From positions 1-5,494 of the forward strand of contig JAFYIM010000191.1 in assembly GCA_017538635.1 (NCBI GenBank): a stretch of 5,494 bases of DNA, given 5' to 3'. Source of the DNA: a bacterium. GTDB taxonomy: Bacteria; UBA3054. The notes beneath the pieces are model-generated. The model worked only from the letters and a program-made list of their open reading frames with translations. It ran no database searches and was not told the origin of the DNA. The position numbers were made by a program, and so were the translations under genes. Below, in pieces: positions 1,193 to 5,494 of this stretch (position 1 is the first letter of the stretch; each line of letters opens with the position of its first letter).

Positions 1193-1222
1193 ATTAAATT
1201 GAAACCGCGCTACTTATGCCAG
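1193..1222 (-). promoter_or_regulatory. Candidate promoter for the exported coiled-coil gene
   Basis: The 61-base gap between the phosphoesterase stop (1210) and the next start (1148) contains TTTAAT (1193-1198, 5 of 6 to a -10) with CTGGCA (1217-1222, 4 of 6 to a -35) 18 bases upstream, the latter inside the preceding coding end. A second possible -10, TATAAC (1167-1172), would leave a leader of only about 12 bases, placing the Shine-Dalgarno at its very start. A 4-bp hairpin (GGAC/GTCC, 1173-1186) lies between them; it has no T-run on the minus strand and is not a convincing terminator. Co-transcription with the upstream gene is equally possible. Confidence 0.3.
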
Positions 1223-2379
1223 ACTTCGTTCGTCAGCGTCACGCCGTCTCCGCGAAACACTTTCACGCCCAGTTCTCTTTCTGCGACGTCCAATCTCGTC
1301 ACCGTCGCCCTGTTCAGCGGCTTGCTGTCGCCGATGACGAAGGGGAATGAGAAGCCCATCTTCTTGGCGTCTTCTTTGTTGTAGTACTGGTAGCGGTGAT
1401 CGTGGCCGCAGAGCACGATGTCCGGCTCCGCTTTCACAAGGGTTGGCACCTGGTCTTCAAAGTGCGGTTCGGCCCTGTCTTCGTCGGCGTCGTCCGGTTT
1501 GGGCGGGATATGCATGAAGACGACTTTCCATTTGGCATTCTTGTAATCATCGGAGGCAACTTCTTTTCTAAGCCATTCGCCCTGCTCGAGCATATAGGGC
1601 TTGAAGGAAATAGAGCCGTCGTACATCCAGCCCCAGTCCGCCCTGTCGTCGCCGGAATCAAGGAAAAGAACGCGGGCGAAACCTAAGTCCGCCGTGCCGT
1701 AATACTGATCGTTGCGGAGCGTCATATATTTGGGAACGTACCTGGCGTGGGAGCCGCGCGTTTCATGGTTGCCCCTGACGAAGGTGGCCATAATGCCCTT
1801 TTTGGCGAAAACGCCCAAATGCCTGCCCAAATTTTTAGCAACGTCTTCTTCGCAGTTGAAATAGTGGCAGGGGTCGCCGTTGGAAACAGCCAGGGTAATA
1901 TCGTCGCCCACCAGTTTCAGAAGAGGCTCGTACATGTCGTTCTGACTGTGAACGTCCTGAAAAACCGCGGCGGTCCAGCTTCCGTCCTCCCTGACCACCG
2001 GCTTCAGAATTCCTTCCTCGGAACGAACTTCCGGATGGAATTTCGCGGTGAAGGATTGGAACTTTATGACTTCCCTTCCCACGAAACGGTACCATATGGG
2101 CTTCTTGGGATCGTAATCCTTGACATATGCCCTATGGTAGAGAGTATTGGCGTCCTTCAAACCATATTTGGCGTAGTAGGACACCTTCCACTCAGAATTG
2201 GTGTCCTGACGATATTCCAGCCAAGAGTTGGCGGGCTGGGTGGTCATCCAGTTAAAGCCTACTTCATGGGAGCCGGTCAAAAGTATCCAAGGAGTCGATT
2301 CGAATAAGTTGGTCACGGGGGTTTCTCCTGCTAAGGCGGCGCAAACCGCAAAAACGCTTAAAACGATTAATTTTTTCAT
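1210..2379 (-). CDS. Exported purple-acid-phosphatase-like metallophosphoesterase, short paralogue
   Basis: A 389-residue calcineurin-like phosphoesterase, expected to hydrolyse phosphate mono- or diesters with a two-metal centre outside the cytoplasm. Residues 1-17 are a signal peptide (MKKL, hydrophobic core, AALA-GE cleavage). Residues 28-115 form a beta domain resembling the FN3-like N-terminal domain of purple acid phosphatases. The catalytic domain follows with all core motifs: D142-x-H144, G168-D169, G203-N204-H205-E206, H290 in FMHIPP and G325-H326-D327-H328. The Tyr of the classical GDxxY motif is absent (H172, then Y173), so a purple Fe(III)-tyrosinate site is not predicted. It is a tandem paralogue of the 428-residue gene upstream. 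About 50 of 92 residues match without gaps from RGNHE to MHIPP. No Shine-Dalgarno precedes the ATG; the leader is A-rich. The start is chosen because it begins the signal peptide. The substrate is unknown. Confidence 0.93.
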   Translation of the reverse strand: MKKLIVLSVFAVCAALAGETPVTNLFESTPWILLTGSHEVGFNWMTTQPANSWLEYRQDTNSEWKVSYYAKYGLKDANTLYHRAYVKDYDPKKPIWYRFVGREVIKFQSFTAKFHPEVRSEEGILKPVVREDGSWTAAVFQDVHSQNDMYEPLLKLVGDDITLAVSNGDPCHYFNCEEDVAKNLGRHLGVFAKKGIMATFVRGNHETRGSHARYVPKYMTLRNDQYYGTADLGFARVLFLDSGDDRADWGWMYDGSISFKPYMLEQGEWLRKEVASDDYKNAKWKVVFMHIPPKPDDADEDRAEPHFEDQVPTLVKAEPDIVLCGHDHRYQYYNKEDAKKMGFSFPFVIGDSKPLNRATVTRLDVAERELGVKVFRGDGVTLTNEVWHK

Positions 2380-2486
2380 GTTTTTGCTTATTTTTGGCTG
2401 TTTTTTAGCGATTTTTGCGCTTTTTTGGCGTTTTCGCTTCGAAAAGCCGAATGTTTTGGGTTATTATTTCGTTTTTTATTTGTTTT

Positions 2487-2514
2487 TTACTATTTTTTTG
2501 CTTATTTTTGTCAA
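2487..2514 (-). promoter_or_regulatory. Candidate promoter inside the curved region, for the 389-aa phosphoesterase
   Basis: A perfect -35 hexamer TTGACA lies at 2509-2514 on the minus strand. At 16 bases spacing is TAGTAA (2487-2492, 3 of 6), and at 19 bases TAAAAA (2484-2489, 4 of 6), so the -10 is weak. The leader would be about 100 bases of A-rich RNA. Upstream phased A-tracts (2515-2675) could act as an UP-like element or bend DNA around RNA polymerase. In such AT-rich sequence chance hexamers are common, hence the low confidence. Confidence 0.35.
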
Positions 2515-2561
2515 TTTTTACTCGTTTTTCGCTAAAATTGCCCTAAAAAGGCCAAAGCTTT

Positions 2562-2579
2562 TAATGGTTTTAGCCATTA
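2562..2579. repeat. Short perfect inverted repeat in the intergenic curved region
   Basis: TAATGG and CCATTA form a perfect 6-bp stem with a 6-base loop, 26 bases beyond the stop codon of the 428-residue phosphoesterase. On the minus strand it is not followed directly by a T-run, although AAAAG…CTTTT then TT follows close by (2545-2562). It could be a weak terminator complex or a 3'-end stabilising hairpin, or it may be chance in AT-rich sequence. No strong terminator separates the two phosphoesterase genes. Confidence 0.3.
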
Positions 2580-2604
2580 TTTGCAATTTTTGAGCGTTTT
2601 TTCG

Positions 2605-3891
2605 CTATTTTTGCCTGTTTTTCTCAATTATTTGCCAAATATCGTTGATTTTTGACCAAATATCGTTAGATTTTTGATTGCCCTGGGAAGAGGAGGTCGT
2701 CTGCTTCTGATCCTGTTGCTTGGTCTTGCGCCAATCAAACTTGGGAAGGTAGAGTTCCCCAGGCGCGATCTCAAAGCGCAAAGCAAGATCACTGTTCTTG
2801 TGGCTGCTGCCTCCGCCGCCTATGAGGACCGGGAAATCCAGGTTGTATTTTTTGGCTTCTTCTTCGTTGAGGAAACTTTCCTTGTGCTCGTGACCGGAGA
2901 TCGCAATGTTAACGCCTTTGCCGACCAAGCATGGAGCGAAGATCCTGGCGCCGTTCTCCACGACAGGATAGCTGTGCTCCTCCTCTGATTCCCTGGGCGG
3001 GATGTGCATGAAGACTACGCGCCAGGTCGCGGTCTGCCACTCGGCGCTCTCAACTTCTTTCTTCAGCCATTCCGCCTCTTCCTGCAAATAGGCGTCGAAG
3101 TCGATGAGGCCGCTGTATTCCGCGTGGTCCTTGGGCTTGTCCTCACCGGTATCGAGGAAGACTACCCTGGCGCAGCCTAAGGTCAGGGCGCCGTAGTAAC
3201 GATCGTTCGGGCGGGCCATATATTCGGGAATGTCCCTGGCTCCGGCGCCCCGGCACTCATGGTTTCCCCTGACAGCGAGCGTCAGAAGACCGTTCTTGGA
3301 AAGCGCAGCCATAGGCGTCGCCAGATTGTTGACAAGGTCCCCCGTGCTGCCGGGAGCGTCACATATATCGCCGTTCAGAACGCAGAGCGAAAGGTCGTCT
3401 CCGGCGGCCGAGAGCGTTGGGAATAAGCGAGCCGTCTGATTGTGCAGGTCGCAGACGATGCCTATTGCGATGCGGCCGTCCCTGGACATCGGAGCTTTGA
3501 TCTTGATTTCCTTGCCTTCTTTGGCGCCGGAAAAACTGACGTTGTATGCGCCGAAGCTCTTTATTGGTTCGCTCACCGGCTTGATGAAGACGGGCTTCAA
3601 AGGATCAAAGCCTTTGATGTAAGCGCGCTGGATCGTGCCGTTGGCTCTTATGAGACCGTCTTTGATCTCCGGAGCGGCCTTCTGCCACTCCTCATTTTCG
3701 CCCTGGCGCCACAATACGGTGCCTTTGGCCGCGCCCCCTGTCAGGAAGGTTACCGCTAAGCTATCGGTGGCAATTAGCTGCACCCAGGGCTCCAGATTGC
3801 CCACTTTGTCAATAGGCTGCGACTTAGTTTGCGTCTGTGCGCCAAGGGATAAAAGCGTGCTCATAAGAATTGCTAATATTGATTTTTTCAT
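2605..3891 (-). CDS. Exported purple-acid-phosphatase-like metallophosphoesterase, long paralogue with Gln/Lys tail
   Basis: A 428-residue calcineurin-like phosphoesterase, the first of the tandem pair. Residues 1-18 are a signal peptide (MKKS, hydrophobic core, SLGA-QT). Residues 33-120 are a beta domain like the FN3-type domain of its paralogue. Metal-site motifs are D148-x-H150, G174-D175, G209-N210-H211-E212, H296 in FMHIPP and G333-H334-E335-H336. The classical PAP tyrosine after GDxx is replaced by D178. Shared Cys residues (GDPC and GDIC) and the block RGNHE to MHIPP mark it as a close paralogue of the 389-residue gene. After a shared G/D loop (residue 357 onward) it has an extra polar tail, about residues 387-428, rich in Gln, Lys and Ser and ending in two NDIW motifs. 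This tail is encoded in the AT-rich phased region. No Shine-Dalgarno lies just before the ATG. The start is chosen for the signal peptide and for its position after a promoter. The substrate is unknown. Confidence 0.93.
   Translation of the reverse strand: MKKSILAILMSTLLSLGAQTQTKSQPIDKVGNLEPWVQLIATDSLAVTFLTGGAAKGTVLWRQGENEEWQKAAPEIKDGLIRANGTIQRAYIKGFDPLKPVFIKPVSEPIKSFGAYNVSFSGAKEGKEIKIKAPMSRDGRIAIGIVCDLHNQTARLFPTLSAAGDDLSLCVLNGDICDAPGSTGDLVNNLATPMAALSKNGLLTLAVRGNHECRGAGARDIPEYMARPNDRYYGALTLGCARVVFLDTGEDKPKDHAEYSGLIDFDAYLQEEAEWLKKEVESAEWQTATWRVVFMHIPPRESEEEHSYPVVENGARIFAPCLVGKGVNIAISGHEHKESFLNEEEAKKYNLDFPVLIGGGGSSHKNSDLALRFEIAPGELYLPKFDWRKTKQQDQKQTTSSSQGNQKSNDIWSKINDIWQIIEKNRQK
2635..2677. repeat. 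Two-copy ~21-base tandem repeat encoding the NDIW motifs
   Basis: CCAAATATCGTT followed by GATTTTTGA occurs at 2635-2655 and again, with one inserted base, at 2656-2677. On the coding strand both copies keep the same frame at their NDIW codons and give NDIW-SKI-NDIW in the phosphoesterase tail. The 21-base unit is two helical turns, so it also keeps the T-runs in phase. It looks like a recent local duplication at the edge of the curved region. Confidence 0.7.
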
Positions 3892-3925
3892 AGAGGTTTT
3901 TTGGTTTGAGCATACATTACCTCTA
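3891..3925. repeat. 7-bp inverted repeat flanking the leader of the 428-aa phosphoesterase
   Basis: TAGAGGT and ACCTCTA form a perfect 7-bp inverted repeat with a 21-base spacer. One arm ends at the A of the phosphoesterase start codon and the other begins just after the promoter -10. In the minus-strand transcript the distal arm contains AGAGG (Shine-Dalgarno-like) and the proximal arm CCUCU (anti-Shine-Dalgarno-like). The likely transcription start falls within or next to the upstream arm, so only part of the hairpin may exist in RNA. The repeat could instead be a DNA operator. A 9-codon ORF (3917 to 3888, MYAQTKKPL) spans the leader and its TGA overlaps the phosphoesterase ATG. Confidence 0.45.
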
Positions 3926-3927
3926 CG

Positions 3928-3956
3928 ATTATAGCAAATCTCAACGCTCGTCTAAG
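3928..3956 (-). promoter_or_regulatory. Extended -10 promoter for the 428-aa phosphoesterase
   Basis: On the minus strand a perfect TATAAT (3928-3933) is preceded by TGC (3934-3936), giving the extended -10 TGnTATAAT. At 17 bases spacing is a weak -35, CTTAGA (3951-3956, 3 of 6), lying in the last codons of citrate synthase. Extended -10 promoters tolerate poor -35 elements. Initiation is expected near 3920-3922, about 30 bases before the ATG at 3891. This indicates that the phosphoesterase can be transcribed independently of citrate synthase. Confidence 0.65.
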
Positions 3957-5302
3957 GGCACGTAATAGTTCTCGTCGGTCACGCAGCGGTAGGCGGGACG
4001 AATGATGCGGCGACCCTGGAAATTGAGTTCTTCGTTGCGGTGAGCGCACCAGCCGACGATACGGGACATGGCGAAGAGGGGAGTGTAAATTTCCTGCGGG
4101 ATGCCGATGAGATCGTAAACGAAACCGGAGTAAAGGTCAACGTTGGCGCAGAGGTCTTTCTTGCGGCCTTTCACTTTGTAGATGGTCTCGGCCGCGATCT
4201 TTTCGAATCTAAGCAGGAATTCGAATTCGTCTTCCCGGCCTTTTTCCTTGGCCAGTTCGGCGGCCATCTTTTTCAGAAGCTCCGCCCTGGGGTCGGACAA
4301 AGTATAGACCGCGTGCCCGATGCCGTAGATGAGGCCGGAGCCGTCGAAGGCTTCCTTTTTCAATATCTTCGTCAGGATCTTTTCCAAAGCTTTCTGGTCG
4401 TTTGGATCCTTGAGATTTTCTTTGATGTATTTCAGCATGGCTTTGACTTTCAGATTCGCGCCGCCATGCAAAGGTCCTTTGAGGGAGCCGATTCCCGCCG
4501 CGATGGAAGAATAGGTGTCCGTGCCGGCGGAGGAGGTGACTCGCACCGTGAAGGTCGAGTTGTTACCGCCGCCGTGCTCAGCGTGAACTATCAGGAGCAG
4601 ATCGAGCGTTCTGGCTTCCAGAGGCGTGTAGTCGGAGCCTTTCAGCATGTAAAGGAAGTTTTCCGCGAAGGAGAGATTGTCCTGGGGATGCCTTAAGTGC
4701 AGCGTTTTGCCCTGCTCCGCGTGGCGGAGCATATTGTAAGCGTAAGCGATCGTCGCAGGAATCTTGGAGATGAGCTCAATAGACTGGCGCATGAGGTTGT
4801 CTCTGGAAACATCGTCGGGATTCTTGTCGAAAGTGTAGAATTCCAGAACGCTCCTGGCCAGGATGTTCATGATGTTGCTGCCTTCCAATTCGATGATGTG
4901 CAGAATAGTCTGATGCTCAAGGGGCATGTTGTCCCTTAAGAGATTTTGGAAGGAGGTGAGCTCTTCGCTGTCGGGCAGTCTGCCGGAGAGCAAAAGATAA
5001 GCGACTTCTTCAAAGCCGAAGCGGCCTTCTTTCATGGCCGTGTTCGCAAGGTCGGAGACTTCGTAGCCTCTGTAGTAGAGGCGGCCGTCGATGGGGATCA
5101 GATTCCCGTTTTCATCTCGTTCATAACCTACGACGTCGCCAATATTGGTAAGACCGGCCAGCACGCCCGTGCCGTCCTCGTTTCTGAGTCCGCGCTTAAC
5201 GTCCAGGCGTTTGAAGAGCTCCGCGTCTATCTTGGTGGCGTTCTTCATTTCGTCGGACAATTTGCAGACTAAATATTCTGATCTGATCTTGGTGTCGTTC
5301 AT
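3941..5302 (-). CDS. gltA: Citrate synthase (citrate/2-methylcitrate synthase family)
   Basis: A 453-residue cytoplasmic enzyme condensing oxaloacetate and acetyl-CoA to citrate, the entry step of the TCA cycle or of its oxidative branch to glutamate. The N-terminal LRNEDGTGVLAGLTNIGDV and C-terminal RRIIRPAYR…YYVPLDER are typical of the roughly 450-residue citrate/2-methylcitrate synthases common in clostridia and other anaerobes. Catalytic elements are intact: H243 in AEHGGGN, H279 in GPLHGGAN, H330 in the signature GIGHAVYTLSDPRA, D389 in NVDLYSG and the substrate-loop GWCAHRNEE around 421. Preference for acetyl- or propionyl-CoA cannot be told from the sequence. The start at 5302 has GGGAG at 5309-5313 with a six-base spacer. 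An internal Met19 lacks as good a site. It begins just after the 5S terminator, with little space for its own promoter, and ends eight bases before the TATAAT of the next gene. Confidence 0.97.
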   Translation of the reverse strand: MNDTKIRSEYLVCKLSDEMKNATKIDAELFKRLDVKRGLRNEDGTGVLAGLTNIGDVVGYERDENGNLIPIDGRLYYRGYEVSDLANTAMKEGRFGFEEVAYLLLSGRLPDSEELTSFQNLLRDNMPLEHQTILHIIELEGSNIMNILARSVLEFYTFDKNPDDVSRDNLMRQSIELISKIPATIAYAYNMLRHAEQGKTLHLRHPQDNLSFAENFLYMLKGSDYTPLEARTLDLLLIVHAEHGGGNNSTFTVRVTSSAGTDTYSSIAAGIGSLKGPLHGGANLKVKAMLKYIKENLKDPNDQKALEKILTKILKKEAFDGSGLIYGIGHAVYTLSDPRAELLKKMAAELAKEKGREDEFEFLLRFEKIAAETIYKVKGRKKDLCANVDLYSGFVYDLIGIPQEIYTPLFAMSRIVGWCAHRNEELNFQGRRIIRPAYRCVTDENYYVPLDER

Positions 5303-5352: not shown

Positions 5353-5363
5353 CTAAAATTGAA

Positions 5364-5475
<112 letters not shown>

Positions 5476-5494
5476 TAAAAATATCGGAAAGGAA

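Follow-up and report, generated by a model that had tools for sequence, protein, structure and literature searches.

What holds some 300 bases of A/T tracts in helical register between two related phosphatase genes, and what might such a stretch do there? The question is raised by contig JAFYIM010000191.1 of a UBA3054 bacterium (assembly GCA_017538635.1), the whole 5,494 nucleotides of which were analysed and are referred to here as the window. Two metallophosphoesterase genes on its minus strand, the upstream gene B (2605..3891) and the downstream gene A (1210..2379), are joined by an array of phased A/T tracts (2371..2675), mostly A-tracts on the minus (coding) strand, with a period of ~10.3 bases. 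On balance, and with restrained confidence, we read this array as an intrinsically curved cis-regulatory region of gene A whose far end bears a double, operator-like site; the curvature is predicted, and the promoter, the operator and the regulator are putative.

Between 2371 and 2675 there are 22 T-runs (4–7 bases) and three A-runs (4–5 bases), in agreement with the roughly 20 T-runs and few A-runs listed in the initial annotation of this DNA. The 25 A/T runs of at least 4 bases in the interval 2366–2685 share a single period of 10.34 (coherence 21.5), which carries the phase across the coding/non-coding boundary into gene B, as had been claimed; at the other end the tracts extend to the gene A start codon. 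Most runs deviate from this period by less than 1.5 base pairs (bp). The departures are plus-strand A-runs, which come 0.9–2.1 bp early (3-base A-runs 2.6–3.2 early), a single 4-base T-run (2559–2562) that is 2.3 bp late, and some 3-base T-runs (2467–2469, 2479–2481 and 2580–2582) that are displaced by 2–4.5 bp. The power of TTT has its maximum at a period of 10.3 with a value of 48.1, compared with maxima of 22.6 over 1000 dinucleotide shuffles and 25.3 over 1000 token shuffles, and the TTTT signal is likewise reached in 0/1000 shuffles. With none of 1000 shuffles in these three tests, and 0/2000 further token shuffles of the window array, matching the observed periodicity, the ~10.3-base recurrence proposed earlier does exceed that of shuffled sequence. 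The A-tracts are phased at the helical repeat beyond chance, as in a phased A-tract promoter enhancer. Two repeats described within the array were also found as stated: the 16-base direct repeat (2381–2396 and 2495–2510) is exact, and the 21-base duplication does exist and forms part of the gene B end, where it encodes SNDIWSK / INDIWQI.

Eight ruminant-gut records that carry gene A, from rumen, reticulum, omasum and jejunum, were retrieved by protein search of genome contigs. Five of these contigs (L001, L002, L004, L005 and L006) extend beyond the gene A start, and all five keep the order gene B–array–gene A. The array has a period of 10.25 in L001 (coherence 20.5 of 22), 10.30 in L004 (18.4 of 22), L005 (19.3 of 22) and L006 (21.1 of 24), and 10.40 in L002, where it is weaker (12.7 of 22). 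Token shuffles match the observed phasing in 0/2000 cases in the window, L001, L004, L005 and L006 each, whether the coding part is included or left out; for L002 the counts are 6/2000 with the coding part and 19/2000 without it. Pairwise letter agreement is 0.85–0.97 in tracts and 0.58–0.78 in spacers, a contrast that is partly built in because the alignment favours A-runs. Identity of the spacers compared with that of the gene A four-fold sites is equal for window–L001 (0.77 and 0.77), lower for L001–L002 (0.68 and 0.82) and higher for L001–L004 (0.68 and 0.55); since it falls on both sides, the spacers look roughly neutral. Neutral drift was simulated from the window array, with window composition, substitutions only and one starting sequence, for related genomes that are non-independent. 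The observed coherence of L001, L004, L005 and L006 was reached in 0/2000 simulations each, and their tract number in 28, 5, 12 and 0 of 2000, respectively. Because the simulations miss the coherence of these four relatives and reach that of L002, there is support for selection on phase in most of the family, L002 being the exception. The expectation that phasing persists in relatives while the spacers diverge thus holds for L001, L004, L005 and L006 and fails for L002. The remaining three contigs (L003, L007 and L008, from genomes G007, G006 and G008) stop within gene A and provide no array data, and their assemblies yielded no gene B; the array or the ribosomal RNA (rRNA) operon may disrupt assembly at this place. 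In L005, gene B (G004:C78:10890-11954) has one in-frame TAA, either genuine or an assembly error, with the tail and the array intact.

The far end of the array overlaps the 3' coding end of gene B (2605..2679, minus strand), which encodes the C-terminal tail NQKSNDIWSKINDIWQIIEKNRQK. Two inverted repeats are located in its last codons, in tandem and two helical turns apart: repeat 1, CAAAAATC-TAAC-GATATTTG (2657..2676, minus strand), which is operator-like, and repeat 2, CAAAAATC-AAC-GATATTTG (2636..2654, minus strand), which is identical in all six sequences of the alignment (A1). Inside both repeats, the six sequences vary solely in the spacer of repeat 1. The gapped inverted repeat has two sites per genome, both at this locus, in five of the eight genomes (the five in which gene B was found), and within the same five the motif AACGATATTTGG occurs at the gene B end only. 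A single exact pattern of the double site, run against viral contigs as a check on mobile origin, gave no match. In the last 27 alignment columns of gene B, 18/21 amino-acid-invariant degenerate codons are identical, compared with 142/298 elsewhere (p 0.0005; five sequences, L005 being excluded for its in-frame TAA). The codon choice of the tail is rarer than that of all of 3000 recodings. Equally good pairing was obtained in 5/20000 recodings with the codon usage of the window genes and, among AT-matched recodings, in 3/4000 at the fixed place and 15/4000 anywhere, tests which are post hoc because the inverted repeats were first noticed on viewing a fold. The tail itself NDIWSKINDIWQIIEKNRQK (window 2605–2679) resembles an amphipathic helix on a Ser/Thr-rich linker and is absent from distant homologues.

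With a bend of 18 degrees per A-tract, the summed bend is computed to be 318–371 degrees for every one of the six sequences other than L002, where it is 216 degrees. The predicted ratio of end-to-end distance to contour length is 0.24–0.38 in the six arrays, with a background median of 0.92 (280 kb); the strong bend foreseen in the initial annotation is thus supported by computation. The G001 array (0.33) is equalled by a shorter one at L062 (0.31), which among the remaining A-tract sites of the G001 sample has the strongest curvature and also lies directly 5' of a start codon. L062 (~18440–18620 in G001, with the homologous L015 in G002) is a shorter phased A/T-tract array just before a candidate accB-like gene.

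Phased A-tracts over ~300 bp would bend the helix coherently, into nearly a full loop. Gene A would have its promoter inside the array, and the curve could help RNA polymerase to bind or wrap at it; alternatively, the curve could bring a putative regulator, bound at the pair of inverted repeats that the gene B end contains, next to this promoter, the separation being ~170–210 bp if a weak -10-like site is correct. This candidate (AATAAT, 2463..2468, minus strand) is a hexamer match 89 nucleotides before the gene A start codon; the -10-like hexamers of L001, L004, L005 and L006 (CATAAT, AATAAT, AATAAT and AACAAT) are located ~99–100 nucleotides before the start, and L002 has none. Selection would keep the shape (the tract positions) above the letters of the spacers, with conservation nearly to the letter in the inverted repeats. 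The earlier suggestion that the array shapes the promoter of the downstream gene stands as far as position is concerned, the array being in front of gene A; as for the promoter itself, only weak, unaligned -10-like hexamers and no -35 box were found. A sigma-54 promoter for gene A was considered and rejected: there is no conserved -24/-12 site, though the sigma-54 DNA-binding domain is encoded in 8/8 genomes.

Several observations weigh against a curved regulatory region. The wedge model behind the curvature values is crude, one site in the 280-kb background already has a ratio of 0.31 (the background minimum), and the observed curvature value is attained by 0–4/300 token shuffles. A coding 21-bp tandem repeat (L124), not an A-tract array, is more curved, at 0.10 the lowest ratio in the G001 census. 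The built-in part of the tract/spacer contrast has been noted above, and the coherence of L002 is no better than neutral (576/2000 simulations). At the gene A promoter, no convincing -35/-10 pair was found, the -10-like hexamer of the window is 11 alignment columns off those of the relatives, and the sigma-54 pattern GG-N10-GC occurs once in the window and once in L002, in different places, with none in the other four of the six sequences. In the gene B tail, the number of tracts is not above that of AT-matched recoding (1971/4000 have as many). There is protein selection on the tail too: homologues at 71% and 69% identity keep it almost exactly or in pattern, and it is lacking in more distant ones. 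Seven residues are 21 bp, so the protein and DNA periods coincide, and the tail is probably constrained at both levels. The tandem repeat L124 (17208–17639) consists of a 21-bp unit repeated 20.6 times, with predicted extreme curvature without runs of 4 A or T; additional 21-bp units are found at 17934.

The array could instead act as RNA, an A-rich 5' leader, largely open apart from one hairpin, that aids ribosome loading without a Shine-Dalgarno sequence, the 10-bp spacing being secondary. The A-tracts are on the coding side, and no Shine-Dalgarno-like sequence is present before gene A (read by eye). A possible leader hairpin (2396..2448, minus strand), identified by paired changes and folding, has 5/12 pairs changed on both sides (tested on the same alignment that gave the fold), a covariation score reached in 0/500 shuffles; it folds in the window, L001, L004, L005 and L006 (z-scores of -1.1 to -2.3) and does not fold in L002. 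However, the whole leader is not unusually folded (z-score -1.39), the RNAalifold covariation term is unfavourable (+0.25), further pair types are not above shuffles (277/500), and translation requires no 10.3-base spacing that continues into the preceding gene. We consider a leader of this kind unlikely. A terminator of gene B in mid-array was rejected, as no hairpin is shared by the six sequences.

How often such arrays recur in the genome bears on a further alternative, a site at which an HU/IHF-family nucleoid protein, or another DNA-wrapping protein, packs or silences the locus. A pattern of four phased tracts has 23 matches in the five genomes, all within the array. Over 15 genomes of the order there are 39 matches, the other 16 being in the more distant G009–G012, and 7 of the 17 matches to a five-tract pattern are in G009, G010 and G012. 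The mirror image of the four-tract pattern is matched once, in G002, where the match and the array are on opposite strands. A three-tract pattern has 80 matches in the five genomes, of which 50 are within the array; none of the 33 matches of an out-of-phase control pattern is. In a census of G001 (1.08 Mb of ~2.2 Mb) the array scores 19.7 and the runner-up site 9.1; with a wider period range (280 kb) the runner-up, at 10.3, is L064 (~1130–1300 in G001), a 12-bp tandem repeat of AAAACTACCGAG. Long phased arrays are therefore close to unique in these genomes, and short ones are not. A packing signal would need more than about one long array per genome. Each of the eight genomes has two or three HU/IHF-family matches, so packing by such a protein keeps a small probability. 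An H-NS family match was found in 0/8 genomes, with the Escherichia coli control positive (Lsr2, MvaT and Rok were not searched). We rate a nucleoid-protein site as quite unlikely.

Neutral growth of an AT-rich 10-bp unit, by slippage or by duplication in tandem, with the phase inherited from a common ancestor, would account for the recurring spacer CAAGC (9/57) and for the gaps of 9–12 and 20–22 bases between relatives, which occur among many other sizes. L002 fits neutral decay. The simulations described above are at odds with such an origin in the other four relatives, in coherence and in tract number, and it appears improbable.

That the array is a topological boundary, or a site favoured by gyrase, downstream of the rRNA operon is highly improbable. 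In its favour, the 5S rRNA is upstream of the locus in the window (5362–5476, minus strand; Rfam match) and in four of five relatives (the L006 contig has no 5S match), and E. coli is reported to have gyrase sites downstream of its rRNA loci (PMC9825172); against it, the second 5S genes of G001, G002 and G003, the only genomes with more than one 5S found, are on contigs without an array match. The array had been placed just after the rRNA operon and linked to a supercoiling boundary; the first statement is incorrect, since the 5S gene is ~2.7 kb upstream with two genes, gene B and a citrate synthase gene (3941–5302, minus strand), in between, and the second is disfavoured by those 5S contigs. 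Base skew (100 kb, one side only) is noisy and uninformative on a boundary, origin or terminus; as both flanking genes have the same orientation, an origin or terminus was set aside.

As a curved regulatory region, the array is a variant of the known phased A-tract promoter region, and what sets it apart is its length, its near-uniqueness in the genome and its extension over a coding end that holds a double, operator-like site. Known phased A-tract promoters generally carry a few tracts, whereas ~20–25 are present here over 300 bp, into the preceding coding end and up to the start codon. The plc gene of Clostridium perfringens is said to have a phased A-tract enhancer upstream of its promoter, and Campylobacter promoters reportedly (Petersen, in 2003) have a periodic signal that replaces the -35 box. 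In the Klebsiella nifLA/NtrC system, curved DNA reportedly (Cheema, in 1999) separates an upstream activator site from the promoter. The distal double site, curved spacer and presumed proximal promoter of the present locus are similar; unlike there, no conserved sigma-54 site is found, the distal site is coding and the regulator is putative. Clusters of A-tracts were reportedly (Tolstorukov, in 2005) proposed to aid nucleoid packing at many sites; the phased chromosomal cluster is the same, and here long arrays number close to one per genome. Several reports describe phased A-tract promoter regions (PMC2697988, PMC9825172, PMC3372288, PMC4132750, PMC516772). The Mannheimia leukotoxin promoter likewise has helically phased A-tracts before the gene and an intrinsic curvature that was deduced (PMC2697988). 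In Synechocystis, A-tracts are phased with the start site as a genome-wide average signal (PMC9825172); phasing is tied to promoters there too, whereas here it is a single extreme locus. None of the titles and abstract openings returned by searches of open-access literature described this locus. A stronger version, doubtful in our view, is a single-copy, shape-coded element of about one superhelical turn, kept for its shape above its letters, whose distal double operator in the rare codons of the paralogue's tail would tie both phosphatase genes into one looped switch. Phased A-tracts are common, yet what is argued of their use in living bacteria mostly comes from averages over genomes or from single promoters with a few tracts. 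A near-unique long array that persists across related species as its letters change, one end of which bears an apparent operator, offers a clean test in nature of whether DNA shape is itself selected and of what it does.

Both flanking genes encode phosphatases (PF00149) with a signal-like N-terminus (by eye in gene B), gene A being the presumed target of the array. Their proteins are 35–36% identical in five relatives, in accordance with the paralogy assigned to them from the start. Gene A is present in 8/15 genomes of the order, exactly those of the family, and was not found in the other seven. A sequence search at E 0.001 gave no solved-structure relatives of either phosphatase; in NCBIfam, gene A had no match, and the two other proteins matched only far under the curated cut-offs. 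Searching Rfam at the gathering score for structured RNA of a known family gave only 5S in the window and 5S/23S in the relatives. Upstream of gene B there is an ATG with a Shine-Dalgarno-like GAGGT (window 3888–3920; L001 1751–1775), which shares the gene B reading frame in L001 and, owing to one base in an A-run, does not in the window.

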